Below, piece after piece: positions 9,564 to 62,307 of a stretch of 64,000 nt of DNA. A program made the translations under genes and the position numbers. How positions within the stretch are numbered: the stretch's first letter is position 1; every line of letters starts with the position of its first letter. This stretch comes from a virus. The DNA lies in IMG/VR virus record IMGVR_UViG_3300033997_000478, positions 62,001-126,000 of that record; one strand, 5' to 3'. The notes below the pieces were generated by a model. That model saw nothing but the letters and a program-made list of their open reading frames with translations. It had not been told where the DNA came from and made no database searches.

Positions 9564-9842
9564 TTACGCAGCCACCGGGATATTCGGCGCCTTGTCCATC
9601 AGGTGCTTGCGGAACTCGGTCAAGACATCTTCCATCGACGGGGCCGAATGGATCTGCTGACAGATTTCCACCGCATTGACGAAACCACCCGACAGATTGA
9701 CACCTGCGGCACGCCGATAGATCTCCGGGATGTCGCGGATCATGCACAGTTCCTGAGCCGTGGTGGCCTTGGAGATGTTCATGATGATCTCAACGTTGGG
9801 ATATGTACCTTCTACGTCAAGCGAAATCTTCACATAGATTCG
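9564..9842 (-). CDS. DNA polymerase family B, exon 3 (motif A)
   Basis: The last exon of the interrupted polymerase gene. Just inside it is DVEGTYPN, equivalent to polymerase motif A (D-x2-S-L-Y-P), whose first Asp binds a catalytic metal. Translation continues for about 80 residues and stops at 9564. Motif B (K-x3-N-S-x-Y-G) and motif C (Y-x-D-T-D) do not follow, so this gene gives only the exonuclease and motif A part and the rest must come from another gene. The 5' boundary is inferred: in-frame reading is blocked by TAG at 9843-9845, and joining at CGA gives a smooth frame with exon 2. Confidence 0.75.
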   Translation of the reverse strand, partial: RIYVKISLDVEGTYPNVEIIMNISKATTAQELCMIRDIPEIYRRAAGVNLSGGFVNAVEICQQIHSAPSMEDVLTEFRKHLMDKAPNIPVAA

Positions 9843-10135
9843 CTAGATCTATGTCGACGACATTTATTTTGTCGTCTGCTCCAGCTTTCACTGGATGCCG
9901 AGACTATATCTTCTACCTCTTGGGTAGGTCACTATTTCGGGACCGCTTGGTCCCTACTCCCCGCTACGGGATAGTCGTTGAACGTTCACCCTCGCAGCGT
10001 CTCACGACGGGGCGAGGTAGCTTCGCTGCTGATTGCCCATTGTAGCATCCGTCGACTTTTCAACCTTTCACGCTCGTCCTTACGGACCACGTTGTAGGGC
10101 GACGACTTTAGGGGGTTCCAGCAATTAAATGACAT

Positions 10136-11467
10136 TCACGCTATCGATTGCTCGATAGGTGGACCTAGTTCTTCTTTCAGTTTGAAGAGGTTGAAACGAT
10201 ACTTGGATTGGTAGGTCTTCTCACCTTGAGCAAGATTGAAGACGTACACGGGCGACAAGTCGAAGTGGTGAGCTGCGGCTTGCCTGGAGGTGAAGAACTG
10301 TTCCTCATTGGTGGTGAGGTCAGTGACGACGATCCCGTCTGGTGATTTGATAGGATGGTCTTTGTAAACTGCAAGATGTCTGGCGCTGTGGTTGGGGAAT
10401 GGATCTCCACCTATCACATAGCGGAAATTGTACCCGTATGCCGGTAGGACGAGATTATCCCGAGCATGCTGGAGGATAGTGCCTGACTTTACACCGAGTA
10501 AGTCTTCCAGATGTTGGGCGCTGGTTCCGATGACGAGATCGCCAGTGAATACATTGCGGGCGACGATACCTCCGCCCGACCCATGACGACTCACCGAACC
10601 TGCATCGACTTCCGACCAGTTTGAACCGTCGTCGTATTTGAACAACAGGCGGTCGGAGAACACCTTGTTGGGACATTTACTCAACCGATACTGGATGATG
10701 TTGGGAGTCAACTTACCAGTTTGCCGATGGCATTCTGCAATACTCGGGAAGAGGTGTTCCTCGCCGGTGTTGAGGTCACGCATCCAGACAGATTGGAGAC
10801 TGGCCCTCAGGCCTGTGTCGTAGGCGTGTTGGTTATTGGTCGCATGCGTCGCCCACTCCAGGTTGTCGAGACGATCATCGCCCTTTTGACCGTTTTTATG
10901 GTTGACGACGATCTGGTTGACAGAGGCATTATATCGCTTGAACGTTAGCGACAATGCGCGATGTCTAAAAATAGTTCGACTAAAACCGCTCTCGTTGCTA
11001 ACTCTGGCGGCGCGATAACCCCCGCTGCGAACATCTTTCTCCTTCGTGACGTACCAACTCAAGACCTGCCCAGTTTCAATGTTTCTCAACTCGCCATCAC
11101 GATTGATCGCGTAGCGCGTGAAGAATGGAACGTAAAAGAATGCAGGCATTCCCTCTACTTCCAGAGGACCATGTCGAAAGCGATACGTCAGGTTTACCAC
11201 GTTGAGGTTCTTGGGGTCGCCGTCCTTAAAGAGCGGTTCGATCTCCTCCCACAGGTGCTCTTCCAGAGCAATCTGCCTATACGCTACCAGAACCACCATT
11301 CCGGCAGAGTATTTCTTTGTTCCGCCGACCCACGTCAGCTCGACCCAATGTTCACCATTTTCAAAGACAAGTGGTAGGGTTCGACCAGCACTGTCTTTGA
11401 TTTCACCGTATTGTGTCACCAAGTATCGCCGGGCTGAACCCGGCAGGTATTTCGTTTCTTCAAACAT
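10136..11467 (-). CDS. HNH homing endonuclease inside intron 2
   Basis: 443 aa, start at 11467 with GGTGAG upstream. Residues ~105-140 contain a NUMOD4-like segment (FFTRYAINRDGELRNIETG), followed by HNH core NHKNGQKGDDRLDNLEWATH near residues 191-210. The long C-terminal part has repeated segments that probably bind the intron-minus target. It fills most of the intron. Its RBS lies just after a hairpin at 11489-11506. It is paralogous to the endonuclease in intron 1. Confidence 0.88.
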   Translation of the reverse strand: MFEETKYLPGSARRYLVTQYGEIKDSAGRTLPLVFENGEHWVELTWVGGTKKYSAGMVVLVAYRQIALEEHLWEEIEPLFKDGDPKNLNVVNLTYRFRHGPLEVEGMPAFFYVPFFTRYAINRDGELRNIETGQVLSWYVTKEKDVRSGGYRAARVSNESGFSRTIFRHRALSLTFKRYNASVNQIVVNHKNGQKGDDRLDNLEWATHATNNQHAYDTGLRASLQSVWMRDLNTGEEHLFPSIAECHRQTGKLTPNIIQYRLSKCPNKVFSDRLLFKYDDGSNWSEVDAGSVSRHGSGGGIVARNVFTGDLVIGTSAQHLEDLLGVKSGTILQHARDNLVLPAYGYNFRYVIGGDPFPNHSARHLAVYKDHPIKSPDGIVVTDLTTNEEQFFTSRQAAAHHFDLSPVYVFNLAQGEKTYQSKYRFNLFKLKEELGPPIEQSIA

Positions 11468-11488
11468 GAGATTCTCACCAAGATATGT

Positions 11489-11506
11489 TCACCATAACAT
11501 AGGTGA
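11489..11506 (-). promoter_or_regulatory. Hairpin before the intron 2 endonuclease start
   Basis: On the minus strand TCACC-TATGTTAT-GGTGA forms a 5-bp stem 22 nt before the ATG, just 5' of the GGTGAG ribosome site. The loop holds TATG. Such hairpins often restrain expression of phage homing endonucleases. Confidence 0.45.
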
Positions 11507-11520
11507 GTTAAGAACTATTA

Positions 11521-11617
11521 ATCGGCCACGTGCGCACGGCCAAAGCTCTTGATGTTAGGCAGACCCTTCAGAAGGACCAGACCGTCATCAGAGACCAGAT
11601 GGGACGGCAAGGTGACA
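11521..11617 (-). CDS. DNA polymerase family B, exon 2
   Basis: A 97-nt internal exon, too short to show as an open frame by itself. The minus strand reads TLPSHLVSDDGLVLLKGLP then NIKSFGRAHVAD before a TAA. Exon 1 (1433 nt) plus this exon is 1530 nt, exactly 510 codons, and the frame then runs into exon 3. It lies between the 3' end of intron 1 (group I core at 11690-11890) and the 5' end of intron 2. Confidence 0.72.
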
Positions 11618-11896
11618 CGTTATCTTCGACCGGGGGCGTAACGCCCGGCCCGCGCCGTTACGCGCAGCTGTAGGTCTCCCTACAGACGAGACTATATCTT
11701 CCTCTCCGAGAGAGGGACACCATTTCGAGTCACTTGACTCTACAGGCTGACTAGGCCTTAGTCGTTGAACCTTCTCCTGGGTACGGAGCTTGGCTGCTGA
11801 TTGCCCAATCCTGTTCGTTGTCAAACCGTCAATACGTGCTTTCGCCGTACTTGTGGTGAACAGGCTCTAAGGGGGTTCCAGCAATTAAATGTCTTA

Positions 11897-13039
11897 TCAC
11901 TCAGCCGTTACCGGCTGAGGGGACTTCTTTTGTATGGTAAGTTGTCTATAGCGCAATCCTTGACGGACGGCGCCTTGCCTTGCCAAGGTCGCCACGCGGA
12001 TAGGAGAGATCCCCACCTGCGTTGCTACCTCAAACTTATCACCGAAGTAGACTTCTTCATTCGTGACCGCGTCCTCTACGATAATCGCATCGGATTGTAC
12101 GTTCACTCTGCCCTTGAAGAATTCTAAATGTTTCTCTGTAAACTCAGGCCACCCTTCAAAGCCCTCAAAGTGACGAAACAACCAGCCCTTATATGGGGTT
12201 ACTGTTTTTCGACTACACTGTTGGCTAATGGTGGACTGCTGGACACCGCTGATTTCAACGGCCATGGCCATCGTCGGAACAACCACTGTCTTTTTCTCAA
12301 AGACATTGTAGATGATCAGCTCTGTATTCCGAACGGACTTATTGGCATGACTGTCCAATTCCAACCAGTCCTGATCGGCGTACTTGAACCGCCAGCCATC
12401 GTGGTAACGTTTCTGATTACCCGTGCGGGTCCGGTAAGACACCACGGTGTGACTCAAGCCCAACCGATCCACTGCTTCTTGCATGGTGTTAAAGTGCAGT
12501 TGCGAGCCAGTGCGCCAGTTCCATGCATCCACCGGTACGACCTTTTCCGAATGGAGCCCTTGGTCGTAGGCGTGCTTAACGTTCTCAGAGGGCGTGACCC
12601 ACTCTAGGTTATCCAGACGATCATCCCCTGGAATGCCATTGCGGTGGTTCACCCAACGTTCTGCCGGATGGAAGTTGTAGTCGGTGAAGGTCATTAGGAG
12701 AAGGCGATGACGTCTACCCGGTCTCTTATTACCCACGTCGTCCAATAAATTCGCCACCGCATAGCCGCCAGTGATGCGTTTTTCAGGAATAGGTTTGGTC
12801 TTTCCCCACTTCAACTCTTTAGCGGTTGAGTTACTTCTCAATCGCCCGTCACGTGAGATCAGGTAGTTGCTGAAGCCTGGAATGAAGTAGAAGCCCTTAA
12901 ACAGCCAGTGCTCTACCGGAGCTTTGAATTTGTATGTGGTGGGGCGTTCCTCGTGCTCGAGGAGGGCGATTTGATCCCAGAGTTCGGCGGGCAGGCCGAT
13001 GCTAGGGAAAAGCGCTTTGATTCTTTCTTCGGTGTTCAT
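11897..13039 (-). CDS. HNH homing endonuclease inside intron 1
   Basis: 380 aa from the ATG at 13039; a GTG at 13048 is an alternative. It has a NUMOD4-like part (FYFIPGFSNYLISRDGRLRS) and HNH core NHRNGIPGDDRLDNLEWVTP, followed by HAYDQGL. It is paralogous to the intron 2 protein, which has NHKNGQKGDDRLDNLEWATH. The start codon lies in the arm of a predicted hairpin, so its translation is probably restrained until the structure opens. Confidence 0.87.
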   Translation of the reverse strand: MNTEERIKALFPSIGLPAELWDQIALLEHEERPTTYKFKAPVEHWLFKGFYFIPGFSNYLISRDGRLRSNSTAKELKWGKTKPIPEKRITGGYAVANLLDDVGNKRPGRRHRLLLMTFTDYNFHPAERWVNHRNGIPGDDRLDNLEWVTPSENVKHAYDQGLHSEKVVPVDAWNWRTGSQLHFNTMQEAVDRLGLSHTVVSYRTRTGNQKRYHDGWRFKYADQDWLELDSHANKSVRNTELIIYNVFEKKTVVVPTMAMAVEISGVQQSTISQQCSRKTVTPYKGWLFRHFEGFEGWPEFTEKHLEFFKGRVNVQSDAIIVEDAVTNEEVYFGDKFEVATQVGISPIRVATLARQGAVRQGLRYRQLTIQKKSPQPVTAE

Positions 13040-13066
13040 GTGACGCACTCGTTGTCGGTGTCACAT
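13037..13066 (-). promoter_or_regulatory. Hairpin covering the intron 1 endonuclease start codon
   Basis: On the minus strand ATGTGAC (13066-13060) pairs with GTCACAT (13044-13038). The start ATG at 13039-13037 overlaps the 3' arm. Confidence 0.5.
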
Positions 13067-13102
13067 TATAAGGCGACTTAAATACCTTTTTACTATACTG
13101 AA

Positions 13103-14535
13103 ATCCAGTCAGTGATGTCAATCACGTACTGATCGTTCTCATCGACCATCTTGTTGGACGTAGACGCTGCCACCAGACCATGCTTTTGCACCATGAAGTG
13201 CAAGTCGTCACAGGTACGACGCGGCTGGCTGGGGAAGCGCTTGTACTCGGAGAAGGTGGTCATCAGCGAGATCATCGACCGCAGGTCGGTAATCTGCTCG
13301 TCCAGAATTTCCACCGAGACGCAGTCGAAGATGTTGTAAACGCAGTATTCGATCTTGTAGTTCTTCTGCATGAACCGGTGCCACGGGCCCCTACCCGAGG
13401 TCAAGTGATCTGCTTCCTTGAACTTCAGCTTTCGAATACCCAACTCCTTCTCAAGGATGGCATCCAGACTGTAGGACGGATCCTTACCGCCGGCAATACG
13501 CAGCTTCAGGTAGACGCACATTGCATCCAGTGCGTACCACTTGGCCGGACAGATCACTTCATGCCAACGCTCTGCCGGAGCCAACGCCATGGTCTTGCCG
13601 GAGGCGGTGACCTTCTGTGCCGGACCTTCCTTGTATTCGAAGTAACGGAACTCGCGCGGGATCGAGGGATCGGAGAACACATCGGGTAGGTTGTACCCAT
13701 AGCGCTCCAGCGCCTCGATCATCTTCTTCATATCGAAGTTGATGTTCCAGAAGCTGACAAAGTCCGGACCCCATTCATGGGCGGTTTCGATGATGCGTGC
13801 CGAGCACTGGCCGGCGTTGTCGACGAACTCGATCTCCAAGTTCAGTCCACGCTGCTCGATCAGATTGACCGCCACGGTCCGTGGCTGGCTGGGGTCTTTC
13901 TTGTGCTTGGGGTTGGGTGCTTCGATGTCGCCCAGGTAGTAGTTGAACTTCTGGTAGATCTGCCGAGTGGCCTCTTCGTCGGACATGCCTTCCAAGAAGC
14001 TACGCACCACCACCAGTCGTGCCCGATCACGCATGGTGATCGAGAGCATGATGATCTCGCCGGTCTCCTCATCGAACATGTCGGTTTCCGAGTCGATCAC
14101 GGCCACCAGATTGTCCGAGACCCGATTGGGCCAACGGTTGAGGTAGTGATGCTTGATCAGTACCGGCGCTGGCACGTCCGTGCCGTAGACGTACGGACTC
14201 TGGGCAATCTGACGCAGGTCATTGCGTCCGGTCGGAATGCGACCCAAGGCACGGGTGATGGCCTGGGGCATGTTGATGTCCGAGGACTTCCATTCCTGAA
14301 GTCGCTCGATCTTTTCCCACTCCTTCTTGTCCTTATGGTTGCGATAAGGCTCTTTGGTGATGTAGAAGGGGCGCTGGTAATTGTAGATCTGCCGCAGGCG
14401 CGATTCGCGCGTACCGTCGGGCTTGTATTCGTATTCCTTGACCACCACCAGGTCATTGGGCGAGCCATCGTTGGCGGTAAAGTACAACGCGTGCTTGCAC
14501 TCAAACTCGCTCTTGGGAGGCTGCTGGTCACTCAT
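13103..14535 (-). CDS. DNA polymerase family B, exon 1 (3'-5' exonuclease part)
   Basis: The first exon encodes about 478 residues. It has the three proofreading motifs of family B enzymes: Exo I VIDSETD (D-x-E), Exo II WNINFDMKKM (N-x2-FD) and Exo III YNIFDC (Y-x3-D). Without splicing the frame ends at a TAG at 13093-13095, three codons into the intron. Splicing out both introns gives a ~602-aa protein ending after motif A. The gene diverges from the virion metalloprotease gene across 93 bp. It copies the phage genome together with a missing C-terminal half. Confidence 0.85.
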
Positions 14536-17542: not shown

Positions 17543-18109
17543 TCAACCCATCGACCCCATGCGGGTCATGCCGCGTGGGGTGAAGGTGTCCATCGACGTT
17601 CCACCGGAGATCGAACCACTGCGCTGCAGCGTCTTCAGCAGACCCGTACTGACGGTCAGCTTGAACTGGGTGAGCGCATGCTTCATGAGCATGCCCTCCA
17701 CCTCGCGGACAAACCGCGCGTCCATGTCCAACGCTTCGCGCCGATCCTTCGGCTCACCGTAGGAGACCGGCAAGACGTACGTCTCCACGCGCAGGGGATT
17801 GCGTTGGGAATAGGCCTGGGTGAGGCGGCGGTGGGAATTCCGACTGTAGTAGTAGTCCTGCAGCGGAATGTCGGCCACACCTGCCTGCTTGAGCTGGTGT
17901 CCGTAGGCGCCCAGCGCTGCATTGTAGGTCGAGGGCAGGGATTGACCACGGCGAAGGAACTGCACATCCACCGGTCCGTAGAAGGTGAGCGTCCAGACCT
18001 GACTCGGGTGGCCCTTGGCCCACTTCTCCGTCACACGCTGACCGGAGTGACAGCTGTAGTAGGCCGTACGAGTCAGGCCCTTGGTTTCTTCCTTCTTTTT
18101 CTTCGCCAT
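17543..18109 (-). CDS. Unknown protein, 188 aa
   Basis: The start at 18109 (MAKKKKEET) is favoured because the frame upstream has poor coding character. The protein has a basic N-terminus, a beta-rich body (VWTLTFYGPVDVQFLRRG) and a Gly/Ser/Met-rich C-terminal tail. It may be a structural protein. It diverges from the gene at 18204 across 94 bp. Confidence 0.7.
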   Translation of the reverse strand: MAKKKKEETKGLTRTAYYSCHSGQRVTEKWAKGHPSQVWTLTFYGPVDVQFLRRGQSLPSTYNAALGAYGHQLKQAGVADIPLQDYYYSRNSHRRLTQAYSQRNPLRVETYVLPVSYGEPKDRREALDMDARFVREVEGMLMKHALTQFKLTVSTGLLKTLQRSGSISGGTSMDTFTPRGMTRMGSMG

Positions 18110-18203
18110 GATCTTGAGTTCAAAGGGATACACAACCACAAGCTGAACGTGTAAGAAATAACAACCCGCCGTTAATATTTGAAACATTACTCCTTGGTGC
18201 AAG

Positions 18204-18677
18204 ATGAGCGACAAAACCTATATCCCCGATCCGCTGCTGCCGGTCGAAGACCAGATTGCCCTGCAGACCCTCGATGACCGACTGGTGAACTACATCACCA
18301 AGATGGCACCGGGCAAAGCCAACTCCGATGCGGATCTGGCTCTGCAGCAGAAGCTGCTGATGAACAACGTGTTTGAGTACGCGCTGAACCTGCCGGCCCA
18401 CCTGTTCCACAAGGCATGGGCACAGATCCTCAACCGCGTACACCAGAACATCACCGGCTGCTTCTCGTTGGCTTACTCGGCACGCGGTCTGGCCTACATG
18501 CAGGTCGATCAGAAGACCCGCCGCAACTTCGAGCGCCTGCTGACGCTGACCTACACCACTGCCGATCCGAAGGCGCGCCAGTACTCGATCAAGCAGGTTC
18601 ATCTCGACCTGATCCTGGCCGGCCTGCCCAGCGAAGTGCAGCGGCAGAAGCTGCAAGACTTCTACACCTTCCAGTGA
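18204..18677 (+). CDS. Unknown protein, 157 aa
   Basis: It is a helical, soluble protein. There is no clear Shine-Dalgarno sequence, only CTCCTTGGTGCAAG upstream. It ends directly before a strong terminator. No domain is recognised; the setting among virion genes suggests a late gene. Confidence 0.7.
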   Translation: MSDKTYIPDPLLPVEDQIALQTLDDRLVNYITKMAPGKANSDADLALQQKLLMNNVFEYALNLPAHLFHKAWAQILNRVHQNITGCFSLAYSARGLAYMQVDQKTRRNFERLLTLTYTTADPKARQYSIKQVHLDLILAGLPSEVQRQKLQDFYTFQ

Positions 18678-18682
18678 ACCAT

Positions 18683-18744
18683 GGCCTCCTGCTTTCGGGC
18701 AGGAGGCTTTATGCAGCATAGACCCCCACCCGAAGGTGGGGGCT
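18683..18744 (+). terminator. Tandem terminator hairpins
   Basis: GCCTCCTGC-TTTCGG-GCAGGAGGC followed by TTTATGCAGC is the first hairpin. CCCCCACC-CGAA-GGTGGGGG at 18723-18744 is the second and may serve the minus strand. Confidence 0.75.
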
Positions 18745-18914
18745 TAGCTGTTGAATCAAGCTCTGGACCAGAGTTTAACACCACACGAGTGGTGCGTAAA
18801 ATGCTTCGGCTTACTAGCCACCCCCGCTATGAGGTGGGAGTAGGTTTACGAAGCTGCTCGGGTTTGGAAAGACTTTCGAGGGGTCTTCCAAATGATTACC
18901 AGCCGAGTAAAGAT
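18745..18914. other. Noncoding stretch after the RNA polymerase 3' copy
   Basis: No gene is seen. On the minus strand this follows the displaced 3' end of the beta-prime gene and holds several small inverted repeats (for example CCACCCCC-GCTAT-GAGGTGG near 18820 and CCACACGAGTGG near 18781). It is most likely the original 3' untranslated region. Confidence 0.4.
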
Positions 18915-18971
18915 TTACGAGAAGACCTCGTCAAGATCCATATCGGCCGTGGTCAGGCTCTTACCGTGCAT
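18915..18971 (-). repeat. Displaced original 3' end of the beta-prime gene (copy B)
   Basis: The minus strand encodes MHGKSLTTADMDLDEVFS and a TAA. It is a second copy of the last 18 codons plus stop of the gene at 19806-21089, separated from it by the GIY-YIG gene. Ten of 57 bases differ, nearly all at third positions. Its codons (CTG, ACC, ACG, GTC, TTC, TCG) match the GC-rich usage of the phage, so this looks like the native end. Confidence 0.85.
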
Positions 18972-19765
18972 CATTCCAGGTAGCGGTAGTCGTCACGTCG
19001 TGGATCGCGGACGCGGTTCCAAACAGTCTTTGGGTCGATACCGAGCTCACGTGCCGCGCCAGCCACACTATCGAACTGACGATTCTCAGCGATGACTTTC
19101 TTGGCAAACGGATTGTTCCCACCAGACCAAGCCTCTTTACTTCCCTCTTTACCCCAGCGGGTACTCTGACCCTCACGGATTTTCCTCGAGCGTTCAGCGA
19201 GCTGCTCAGGGGTCATTTCCTTCAGGGCCCGACGTCGCGCAACTGCCATCTTTTCTTTCATCCCCTCACGCCCCATCACGTGGGAGATAGGAGAACGAAC
19301 ATCGGTGACAGCATTTAACAGAAGCGACTTGTCAGCGTTGTCAATGCGCCGCTTCTCGTCTTCGTAGGCCTCCTCTCGGGTGCCAAAGACGAACACGGTC
19401 AGGGTCCATTTGTCCTCGCCAGGATCTTGATCCCACAGGGCCTGCATGGCTTTGTTGTTGTGCTTTCCTTTGCGCAGACTCCAGAAGTGCGAAGCTCTGC
19501 GGTTTTGGATGTTCTGCGTGCTACCCACATAGAAACGTCCTGTCGCTTTGTGGGTGAGCCAGTACGTATACCCGATCGGAATCTTCGCTTCCTCTGCGAC
19601 CTCCGGGTACACGCCATCGTCGAAGAGCCGCCATTGCGACCACTTCGGGTCTTCACTGTAGACGCGGGCAAGGATGTAAGTCTTACTCACACCCAGTGCC
19701 CGCGCAGCTTCAGCTACTGATTTATAGATCTTGTCGTCAATGGTGACGTTGAAATAGTTCCGCAT
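18971..19765 (-). CDS. GIY-YIG homing endonuclease inserted at the end of the beta-prime gene
   Basis: 264 aa. The GIY-YIG core is YTYWL (residues 66-70) and FYVGS (78-82) with a following R-x2-H helix region. Helix-turn-helix-like modules lie at both ends (SVAEAARALGVSKTYI at 16-31 and SVAGAARELGIDPKTVWNRV near 235), which would read the target. Its TGA overlaps the first ATG of the displaced 3' end copy. It is not in an intron: no group I core is visible. Upstream lies a 7-bp hairpin at 19776-19793. Confidence 0.87.
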   Translation of the reverse strand: MRNYFNVTIDDKIYKSVAEAARALGVSKTYILARVYSEDPKWSQWRLFDDGVYPEVAEEAKIPIGYTYWLTHKATGRFYVGSTQNIQNRRASHFWSLRKGKHNNKAMQALWDQDPGEDKWTLTVFVFGTREEAYEDEKRRIDNADKSLLLNAVTDVRSPISHVMGREGMKEKMAVARRRALKEMTPEQLAERSRKIREGQSTRWGKEGSKEAWSGGNNPFAKKVIAENRQFDSVAGAARELGIDPKTVWNRVRDPRRDDYRYLE

Positions 19766-19775
19766 GCCAACCGCC

Positions 19776-19793
19776 AGTATGATTGCTCATACT
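19776..19793 (-). promoter_or_regulatory. Hairpin in the leader of the GIY-YIG gene
   Basis: AGTATGA-GCAA-TCATACT (minus strand) is a perfect 7-bp stem ending 10 nt before the start codon. It contains TATG, the core of phiKZ late promoters as I recall, and may control when the endonuclease is made. Confidence 0.5.
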
Positions 19794-19805
19794 ATTTCCC
19801 TAGCA

Positions 19806-19862
19806 CTAAGAAAATACTTCCTCAAGATCCATATCGGCTGTAGTTAAGCTCTTACCGTGCAT
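19806..19862 (-). repeat. Recoded 3' end of the beta-prime gene (copy A)
   Basis: This is the end now in use by the interrupted gene: the same 18 residues as copy B except Glu for Asp, but with TTA, ACT, ACA, GAA, GTA, TTT, TCT and TAG codons. The AT-rich synonymous changes differ from the body of the gene and fit DNA brought in with the endonuclease. Confidence 0.85.
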
Positions 19863-21089
19863 CAATTTCATGAAGACATCCATGAGCAGCGAACCGATGG
19901 CTGCGGCGTACGTGCCCAGTGCCTGCGGGGTCGAAGCGATGCCCTCACCCATACAGCAGCGGCAGTAGTTGTTGGTGCCGGACGTACCTGCACCGGTCAG
20001 GCAGTAGGCCGGAGAACGCACGACGATCATCTCGCCGAACTTCTTCTGCACCGTCTGCTCATCGATCAGGATCGACTTACCGTTGATCAGCTCGTAATGG
20101 CCGATCAGGTACGGCTGGTTGATCTTGTCAATGCGCATGCGCAGGCCACGCTGACTGCCGCAGTCTTCCTTGTAGACCACCGAGTTCTGGTACATGCGGT
20201 TGTTGTTCTTCACCTCCACGCCGCCCAGTGCAGTCTGCGCACCACGACCATAGGAGCCGTCGCGCAGCTGGTTGATCATGGCCGGCAACTTCTTGATGTC
20301 CCAACCTTCGGCCAGCGAGGTGGTGATCAGATCCGGGTCCAGACCAAAGCCGGTGGAGAAGCCTTGCATGATGTACAGCTTGGCGCGCACCACGTCGTAG
20401 GCCTTGCCCTTGATGTAGAAGCGGGCACCTGGGTCGTTCTTCATCCAAGCCCGATCCATCGCGGTCAGTTCCTTCATGATCCCTGCCACGACCACCGGGT
20501 CGTGCAGTTCGTCCTTGTGCAGAGCCAGAAGCTCGTCACGACGCTTGATCATGTTCGGATCACAGGTCATCGTCTTGGGCGTGGCCGACGGCACGCACAG
20601 CTGGGAGAAGCCCGGCAACTGACCTGCAGCCATCTGGTAGCGCAGGAACTCGCTGGTGCGAATGGCGGTGGGATCATTAGAGCTATCGTCCCAGTGCTTT
20701 TCGATGATCTTCTCGATTGCACCGATACTGATCTCGCCATTCATGTAACCGATCTTGCTGCCGAAGGGCCAGACCAACAGAAGCTGGTTCACCAGCGCGG
20801 TGCCATAGGAGGTCACCACTGCTTCGGGCTGGTTCTTCAACGAACCGGCCGGCAGTTCCAGCTTACCCAGCGCCTTGAACACCGGTTGTTCCGGATCGGC
20901 ATCATCGATCAGTTCAAAACCACCTTCAGGCTTGTAGAACGCCCAGCGGTTGTCTTCGGTCTTGAACAGGCCGTACGGGTAAGGGTGGGGTTTGCCCGGA
21001 CGGAAGATGCTGAAGGCTTCCAACACCCAGCGCTTCCACAGGTAGTTCTCAGCCTGCAGGCAGAGCAGGAAATATTCGCGCTTGTTCAC
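19806..21089 (-). CDS. RNA polymerase beta-prime subunit, C-terminal piece (probable virion type)
   Basis: 427 aa. Near the C-terminus it has VVRSPAYC, then CRCCMGEG (zinc-site cysteines) and, after an Ala/Gly-rich helix, MHGKSLTTADM, which aligns with the trigger-loop start. It is a second, divergent copy of the region seen in the gene at 3652-5643, so it belongs to the other RNA polymerase. In phiKZ the virion enzyme piece gp80 sits near structural genes, as here. The protein ends right after the trigger-loop motif; a native stop at the same codon is kept in copy B, so the short end is not caused by the insertion. Confidence 0.8.
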   Translation of the reverse strand: MNKREYFLLCLQAENYLWKRWVLEAFSIFRPGKPHPYPYGLFKTEDNRWAFYKPEGGFELIDDADPEQPVFKALGKLELPAGSLKNQPEAVVTSYGTALVNQLLLVWPFGSKIGYMNGEISIGAIEKIIEKHWDDSSNDPTAIRTSEFLRYQMAAGQLPGFSQLCVPSATPKTMTCDPNMIKRRDELLALHKDELHDPVVVAGIMKELTAMDRAWMKNDPGARFYIKGKAYDVVRAKLYIMQGFSTGFGLDPDLITTSLAEGWDIKKLPAMINQLRDGSYGRGAQTALGGVEVKNNNRMYQNSVVYKEDCGSQRGLRMRIDKINQPYLIGHYELINGKSILIDEQTVQKKFGEMIVVRSPAYCLTGAGTSGTNNYCRCCMGEGIASTPQALGTYAAAIGSLLMDVFMKLMHGKSLTTADMDLEEVFS

Positions 21090-60799: not shown

Positions 60800-61387
60800 T
60801 TGAGCGAACCACCGTCTGAACCAGAGGAATTCTGGAAAAGAGTCGAGAAATTCAAAAGACTAGAAGTCTCCAATCTGGGTGGTGCGCGAACGGTGTGGCC
60901 GCACAAGGTTAAGGTTCTTCAGCCGATGAAGGCACCTTCCAGTAAGGATCATTACCTGAAAATTTCAGTTAGTCCTTCGGAAGGAGGTAAACAAAAACAG
61001 GTCATGATCCACACCCTCGTTGCTGAAGCTTTCATTGATCGACCATCGGGTATTGTCGATATGGAAGTCAACCACAAGGATGGGGTAAAGACGAACAATG
61101 TTGCGACGAATCTCGAATGGACAACCCACCAAGGGAATATCCAACATTCGTTCGAAAGCGGATTGAGGGCGGCGTGTGTCGGTGAACTTCATCCACAGGC
61201 GAAATCCGTCCGGGCTATAAATGTGATGGACGGCGAAATTATCGCTGCCGGGACCGTTGACGAGTTGGCTCAGAAACTGGGCGTCGAAAGATCCTTCATT
61301 CGAAGGAGATTAAATGGAACCGTCACATCCATAAATCCTAAATTGCCTTACCGAATCGAAGGTCTGGGAAAGGGCAACACTACCTGA
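60800..61387 (+). CDS. HNH endonuclease in the thymidylate synthase intron
   Basis: 195 aa from a TTG at 60800 with CAGGAGAA upstream; a GTG at 60770 is the alternative. It has a NUMOD4-like part and the HNH core NHKDGVKTNNVATNLEWTTH, then NIQHSFESGL, and a C-terminal DNA-binding unit (VDELAQKLGVERSFIRRRL). Base use is more AT-rich than the surrounding genes, as expected for a mobile gene. Confidence 0.86.
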   Translation: MSEPPSEPEEFWKRVEKFKRLEVSNLGGARTVWPHKVKVLQPMKAPSSKDHYLKISVSPSEGGKQKQVMIHTLVAEAFIDRPSGIVDMEVNHKDGVKTNNVATNLEWTTHQGNIQHSFESGLRAACVGELHPQAKSVRAINVMDGEIIAAGTVDELAQKLGVERSFIRRRLNGTVTSINPKLPYRIEGLGKGNTT

Positions 61388-61530
61388 GCTAAATCAGTGT
61401 CCTCACCCAAAGGAATGTGTAAACCTCTCTAAAACGGGAAACTCTCGACTGAGACAATCCGTTGCTAAATCGAAACAACCTGAATAAAGACCTACACTAT
61501 CCTCAGGCTAGTAATCAGAGGAGAATTGTG

Positions 61531-62307
61531 ATGACAATTGCCGCCTATATCCTGACTGACCCCATCTCTGGGTTCGAGTACTACGGCAGCAGTGAAAATG
61601 TGGAAGTACGTCTTGATCGACACTTCCGCGACCTTCAAGCCAACCAACACCACAACAGTAGACTGCAGGAGCTGTACAACGCAGGTCGTGTGTTGGACAA
61701 GATCATCTTTGAAAGTAGTACAATCGAAGATGCCCGTGAAACCGAACTGGCGTTTATCAATTCCCACCAAGGTAGCTGGAGAATGATGAACATTGGTCTT
61801 GGCGTTAACGGGGGCGATAATCTCTCGAACCATCCAGAGCGGGAACGCATCATTTCGAAGATTTCTGAGTCCGTCCGAACGAGAATGGCTCAAATGTCAC
61901 CGGAAGATCGCAAGGAAAAGTGGGGACGCCCAGGCGCCAGCAACCCCATGTTCGGTAGGACCCACTCTGAAGAGGTCCGCCTTGCAAGTTCCAAGCTTCA
62001 TCGGGGGAACACCCACGCTCTGGGAAACGAATGGTCCCCTGAAGCTAGGGCAAAGTTGTCGAAAATAGCTTCCGAACGGACAGGAGACAAAAATCCTTTC
62101 TTCGGTAAGACGCATTCGGCAGAGAGTCGCGAAAAAATAAGGCAGGCCAAACTCGGCGGGGGACCGCCGACGAATGCCATGAAGGTAATGGTCAAGGGTA
62201 TCGTTTACAATTCTGTCAAAGATGCTTGCGATGGTGTCGGGATCTCGTATCCGACCATGGCTAAGCGTCTGAAAAGTGACGACCCCGATTATTCATTTGT
62301 CTCGTAA
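61531..62307 (+). CDS. GIY-YIG endonuclease in the thymidylate synthase intron
   Basis: 258 aa, start at 61531 with AGAGGAGAA upstream. AAYILTDPISGFEYYGSSEN (residues 4-23) is the GIY-YIG core with R-x3-H downstream. Two NUMOD3 repeats (NPMFGRTHSEEVR and NPFFGKTHSAESREKIRQA) and a C-terminal HTH (SVKDACDGVGISYPTM) bind the target, the same plan as I-TevI and I-BmoI. Confidence 0.88.
   Translation: MTIAAYILTDPISGFEYYGSSENVEVRLDRHFRDLQANQHHNSRLQELYNAGRVLDKIIFESSTIEDARETELAFINSHQGSWRMMNIGLGVNGGDNLSNHPERERIISKISESVRTRMAQMSPEDRKEKWGRPGASNPMFGRTHSEEVRLASSKLHRGNTHALGNEWSPEARAKLSKIASERTGDKNPFFGKTHSAESREKIRQAKLGGGPPTNAMKVMVKGIVYNSVKDACDGVGISYPTMAKRLKSDDPDYSFVS

Follow-up and report, generated by a model that had tools for sequence, protein, structure and literature searches.

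A homing endonuclease gene that appears to carry a spare end for the virion RNA polymerase gene of giant phages

The best explanation of the loci compared here is that, in giant phages, endonuclease genes have repeatedly settled in the end of a polymerase gene that encodes part of the active site, and that they brought a spare gene end with them. The locus from which the analysis starts lies in a 64-kb stretch of viral DNA (the window), part of a 324-kb contig, and its parts are given in the Table. We consider it highly probable that a homing element inserts in the 3' end of the virion RNA polymerase gene, before the codons for a Met-His pair, and carries a replacement gene end; that the element carries the very gene end that it destroys is well supported by the sequence comparisons. 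This was also the core of a first-pass annotation of the window, and the relatives with an empty site, the foreign composition of the tail in use and the independent repeats of the arrangement are all in line with it.

Table. Features of the window locus (WIN) and duplicated gene ends at other loci; L-numbers denote loci or contigs of the survey.
Feature	Position	Strand	Remarks
beta-prime core, phiKZ gp80-type virion RNA polymerase piece	19863..21089	(-)	ends one codon before the Met-His of the presumed trigger loop
copy A, gene end in use, apparently element-borne, 18 codons + stop	19806..19862	(-)	47/57 match to copy B
inverted repeat AGTATGA-GCAA-TCATACT, copy A to endonuclease start	19776..19793	(-)	candidate expression-control hairpin, contains TATG; fold z about -3
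GIY-YIG homing endonuclease gene, 264 aa	18971..19765	(-)	catalytic domain 19337-19573; Pfam/PHROG, residues, AlphaFold
copy B, displaced, apparently native gene end	18915..18971	(-)	GC3 equals that of the gene; 3' flank resembles LucasX and L016
apparent native flank (3') of the polymerase gene, which here follows copy B	18700..18914	(-)	alignment to LucasX and L016 flanks
L094			tails 54/57 identical; HNH endonuclease between
L050	5447..7459		tails 41/57; nitronate monooxygenase + unknown gene between, no endonuclease
L227	5428..6339 (AbiTii)		tails 36/57; abortive-infection gene AbiTii between
L228			tails 48/57; HNH endonuclease + unknown gene between
LucasX			tails 38/57; copies abut, endonuclease absent
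L117			30-nt copy, 25/30; sits behind HNH endonuclease

The whole gene (19806-21089, minus strand) is a homologue of phiKZ gp80, a beta-prime piece of the virion RNA polymerase (PHROG 2962, E = 2.3e-122), with further profile matches to PHIKZ074 and to bacterial beta-prime (PDB), and homologues of it are contained in 287 phage records. The duplication starts exactly at the Met-His codons. In a profile of 13 homologues the His of this pair is aligned with a His of phiKZ gp74 and with a region of bacterial beta-prime, both of which we assign to the trigger loop, and the His of the pair (H411) is invariant in the alignment of homologues. Since all homologues except L016 stop some 17–20 residues past Met-His, copy A can be regarded as a complete natural end. 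The stop codon of the endonuclease gene (TGA, 18971-18973) overlaps the ATG of copy B by one base. In L016 (1700-2080) the polymerase tail is extended in frame by about 26 residues beyond that of LucasX, with a repeated ELDLE motif, and this extension is possibly the fused remnant of an earlier duplication.

Copy A encodes MHGKSLTTADMDLEEVFS and copy B MHGKSLTTADMDLDEVFS, each followed by a stop codon. The first-pass annotation had described the last 18 codons and stop of the beta-prime piece as duplicated around a GIY-YIG gene, with differences that are almost all synonymous and with an AT-rich copy in use that is unlike the rest of the gene, and all of this holds. The next-best 57-nt match in the window reaches 28/57 on the same strand and 32/57 on the opposite one, and in the whole contig copy B is the sole other near-identical match to the gene end (E = 2.6e-4). 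Nine codons differ between the copies, the stop included, and eight of these differences are synonymous, compared to a share of ca 19% expected under random change (P about 1e-5). In third-position GC content, copy B (0.78) matches the rest of the gene (0.79), copy A is much lower (0.39) and the endonuclease gene lies between (0.63). For the part of copy A downstream of Met-His the content is 0.31 (z = -4.3), which is the second most extreme value among 109 homologues, after LucasX (z = -5.6). The sequence behind copy B, in turn, resembles what follows the gene in Xanthomonas phage LucasX and in L016. Because host-like codons and the native downstream flank are found with copy B and are both absent from copy A, the comparison shows, as far as sequence can tell, that the displaced copy is the native end and that the copy in use came with the insert.

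Similar differences between the two tails are seen in other loci. In LucasX 13 of 15 differing codons are synonymous (P = 9e-9), and the corresponding P value for L050 is 5e-4. This pattern in the window, LucasX and L050 fits divergence in another lineage and not local duplication followed by decay. As the unused copy B of the window still encodes the tail and differs from copy A almost only synonymously, we infer that the insertion is recent and that selection acted on copy A while it diverged elsewhere. An assembly artefact is an unlikely cause, considering that the copies differ and that the pattern recurs in both isolate and metagenome records; the window itself belongs to a metagenomic contig.

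The ORF between the two copies contains a GIY-YIG domain (PF01541, 2.4e-9) and a NUMOD1 domain, together with an I-TevI-type DNA-binding domain just under the cut-off. Arg89, Glu137 and Asn151 are conserved and the catalytic motif is intact. The best matches of its AlphaFold model are the I-TevI catalytic domain (1mk0/1ln0) and, next, the I-TevI DNA-binding domain (1i3j). With a catalytic domain that has the Arg, Glu and Asn residues and a separate DNA-binding region, the ORF is thus a predicted GIY-YIG homing endonuclease. Its closest relative, at about 35% identity, is found in L025 (5298-6617), where a second GIY-YIG fragment follows in the same slot. Single-protein scans of IMG/VR gave no match for the beta-prime piece of the window and only a distant partial relative for the endonuclease.

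It is important to point out that the gene is complete without splicing, and the earlier view that neither an intron nor an intein is involved has been borne out. No Rfam match to a group I intron was found at 18000-20500, and two introns were detected elsewhere in the same window (cmscan). An intein would not fit either, since copy A ends in a stop codon, which precedes the endonuclease, and the latter is a separate ORF. The Rfam matches at 18677-18804 (HepC_CRE and STnc370) are far under their gathering scores and were dismissed as chance.

A strong inverted repeat (fold z below -2.2) between the stop of the polymerase gene and the start of the endonuclease gene is present in 10 of 13 endonuclease loci, compared to 20% of 91 loci without an endonuclease, and in several loci its 3' arm overlaps the apparent ribosome-binding site. 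These leaders resemble the T4 hairpins that restrain endonuclease translation (PMC2988022), and by this analogy they may control the expression of the endonuclease. The phiKZ late-promoter motif TATG (PMC4666361) was also considered. It lies inside 9 of the 13 leader hairpins (P = 0.08), so that a late-promoter signal there is suggestive but within chance.

For the survey, homologues of the gene were gathered from phage records, IMG/VR and GTDB genomes and each was searched for a second tail, the background being at most 30/57; about 107 homologues served as the comparison set for calling a tail native or foreign. A duplicated tail was found in seven loci, full-length in six (WIN, LucasX, L094, L050, L227 and L228) and partial in one (L117), and between the tails there is a GIY-YIG gene, an HNH gene, cargo or nothing, depending on the locus. 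The displaced copy has the identical first base, before ATGCAYGG, in WIN, LucasX and L094, and it begins at the corresponding point in L050, L227 and L228. The junction of L117 is different, 9 codons from the end. Signs of decay are seen in displaced copies, where Met is changed to Val or Ala and His to Gly, and at L094 both tails are unlike the gene in composition. Two further candidates were discarded: the repeat in L207 seems to belong to an intron, and that in L219 seems to reflect repeated protein domains. For endonuclease genes elsewhere in IMG/VR, no clear extra tail duplication was found outside this polymerase gene. L227 is a jumbo-phage contig of Paraburkholderia adhaesiva ZD32-2, and the same bacterial genome holds two gp80-type loci on two contigs.

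We now turn to the empty alleles, which are available for the clade of the window (L016–L018), for L050 (L031) and for L131 (L129). The comparison with an uninvaded relative, which had been proposed as a check, was carried out in the L031 clade and in another lineage of the gene family, L129/L131. L050, L227 and L228 have an empty relative, L031, to which they are about 75–85% identical in DNA and colinear on both sides. The displaced tails of these three loci all end in TCAATCATCTGA, exactly like L031 (last 12 nt), whereas their tails in use end unlike L031 and resemble one another; the flank that follows copy B in this clade is colinear with L031. A search of the L050 and L227 inserts for an endonuclease remnant found none.

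The natural pair L129 and L131 is much closer. L129 lacks an endonuclease and L131 has a GIY-YIG gene, but the two match at 98.1% over the 5253 bp to the left and at 98.2% over the 2444 bp to the right, and their polymerase cores encode the same protein sequence. At the gene end the identity falls abruptly to 72% and then to 52%. The changes begin about 12 codons before Met-His, where they are synonymous, and past Met-His residues of the tail are altered in L131 (SVSKYNFKHSIT to SVASYDFKKSIT); a hairpin and the endonuclease gene follow. On the sequence evidence, the native tail of L131 is replaced rather than displaced, and the pair shows that tail and endonuclease apparently arrived together. 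A third close relative, L130, has a different tail, a hairpin and an endonuclease of 66% identity.

Altogether, a same-strand endonuclease gene is found behind the polymerase gene in 14 distinct loci and belongs to two families, GIY-YIG (WIN, L025, PhiPA3 (L014), L131 and L130) and HNH (L094, L041, L109, L117, L102, L037, L146, L228 and L078/L079). By parsimony on a quick tree of 107 cores, the occupied state changed at least 13 times and the duplicated state 6 times, counts that do not separate gain from loss. The comparison shows that there were probably several gains or losses of the arrangement, that the endonucleases at this one site belong to different families, and that copy B has apparently decayed or gone in some loci. 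An anomalous tail composition (|z| > 2.5) occurs in 5 of 14 endonuclease or duplication loci and in none of the 89 others (Fisher 2e-5). Three of these five have kept copy B (WIN, LucasX and L094), and its absence from the other two (L102 and L025) fits a loss of B following tail replacement. The anomaly is absent from the endonuclease loci L109, L014, L037, L041 and L130. In Serratia phages of the Moabite type (L006, L015 and L080), a GIY-YIG endonuclease gene lies just behind the same polymerase gene on the opposite strand.

Other explanations have to be weighed against a homing element with its own gene end. In most endonuclease loci copy B is missing, and L131 and L130 are clean replacements with no displaced copy, as would be the case for an ordinary free-standing endonuclease. 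The altered gene end would then be donor flank co-converted in break repair, of the kind with which free-standing T4 endonucleases home (PMC2988022), and a displaced copy would be an occasional by-product of untidy repair at the right end. However, the starting point of the displaced copies is shared by several lineages with different inserts, and this suggests that insertion occurs at a fixed position within the gene; we regard the free-standing explanation as rather unlikely. It is also conceivable that the slot serves mainly for the exchange of cargo or defence genes, the tail copies being recombination arms and the endonuclease one cargo among others, which would suit the contents of L227, L050 and L228. 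Yet endonucleases are by far the commonest content adjoining this gene, and cargo between tails is confined to one clade, which makes such a role improbable.

The abutting copies of LucasX, in which there is no endonuclease, could suggest a local tandem duplication of the gene end, with an endonuclease or cargo inserted later between the copies. Such an origin is very improbable, because it is the tail in use that stands out in composition and the differences are synonymous, the tails in use are the foreign ones in the L031 clade, and tail and endonuclease arrive together in L129/L131. A phage with both copies and no endonuclease is what the first-pass annotation had named as evidence against its reading, and LucasX literally has this state. 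We do not take it as refuting, since an AT-rich copy of foreign appearance is in use there and the junction is identical, as expected after deletion of an endonuclease, and it is best read as such an endonuclease-deleted remnant. Both L129/L131 and the L031 clade speak against an endonuclease-free duplication as the starting state.

In the homing mechanism that we propose, the mobile unit would consist of the replacement gene end (copy A), the hairpin leader and the endonuclease gene. Insertion would part the core from the native end (copy B), and the in-frame copy A would restore the full-length protein, doing what splicing does for an intron. The endonuclease would cut the intact core–B junction of a co-infecting relative, and the repair would copy tail A, leader and endonuclease across, with the core as the left homology arm and copy B as the right one. 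This role of copy B would explain that it is kept in register, with the same first base, in WIN, LucasX and L094. The sequence changes in copy A could help the carrier to escape its own enzyme, as was argued in the first-pass annotation. That annotation holds as regards the insertion in the trigger-loop end, the gene end that is brought along and the native end that is pushed downstream, but its recoding argument fails at L094, where the near-identity of the tails gives no evident immunity. Once copy B is lost, the element would be no different in behaviour from an ordinary endonuclease gene that lies downstream and homes with co-conversion.

In their logic, the mobile ORFs (mORFs) of fungal mitochondria appear to be the closest match; they are known from atp6 of Allomyces macrogynus and from atp6, atp9, cox2 and nad3 of Glomus sp. 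(Beaudet 2013, PMC3630166). In these, the gene is expressed with the carried C-terminus, and the native one is displaced (PMC3630166). Common to them and the window are an endonuclease ORF in the gene, a carried C-terminal piece in frame, the native piece behind the endonuclease and mostly synonymous differences; the Glomus atp9 mORF likewise has a GIY-YIG enzyme, with a carried end of 51 nt (PMC3630166). Several of the features that define an mORF are also found here, namely an endonuclease ORF behind an in-frame carried end, a displaced end that looks native and a carried end that looks foreign, and a related uninvaded allele. Unlike the fungal cases, the present ones concern phage genomes and the trigger loop of a viral RNA polymerase. 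One and the same site is used by GIY-YIG and HNH enzymes, hairpin leaders are present, and remnant and cargo versions occur; the endonuclease is known here from sequence and model.

The seg and mob genes of T4 are similar in being free-standing GIY-YIG or HNH genes beside conserved phage genes, with co-conversion expected in repair and RNA hairpins before several of them (PMC2988022). They are, however, intergenic or divide a gene so that it encodes two polypeptides (mobE/nrdA and mobA/gene 60), and no replacement gene end is described for them (PMC2988022). PhiPA3 gp210 is likewise a homing endonuclease whose target is a conserved catalytic site in the virion RNA polymerase of phiKZ-like phages, but it is an HNH enzyme of a group I intron in another subunit (PMC11620839), whereas the window locus has no intron. 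In the same phage the GIY-YIG gene gp078 lies behind the gp80 homologue, without a second tail. No example of a carried gene end in phages was found in open-access papers, subscription papers being mostly outside the search. The tail-carrying homing element, known in fungal mitochondria, is thus apparently new in phages.

Such an element would allow selfish endonuclease genes to settle in the part of an essential gene that encodes the active site, with no need of an intron or intein, and it would explain the odd, fast-changing 3' ends of this phage RNA polymerase gene. It would also link homing in jumbo phages to the fungal mitochondrial mobile ORFs, and it may bear on the origin of the split polymerase genes of jumbo phages. 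For work on homing, L129/L131 and L031/L050/L227/L228 offer natural allele pairs. One can speculate, quite tentatively, that tail-carrying homing elements are a general third way beside introns and inteins inside essential phage genes, in which copy A replaces splicing, copy B is the right arm, the recoding of A provides self-immunity, and the slot may later carry genes such as AbiTii against competing phages.

Finally, other homing genes were observed in the window. A family B DNA polymerase gene (9606-14535, minus strand) has three exons, at about 14535-13096, 11616-11521 and 9827-9606. Its group I introns (RF00028) are matched at 11668-11951 and 9879-10180, and each contains an HNH endonuclease ORF, at 11897-13048 and 10136-11467, respectively. 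At about 61049-61935 (plus strand) a second GIY-YIG endonuclease is the neighbour of an HNH_3 endonuclease.
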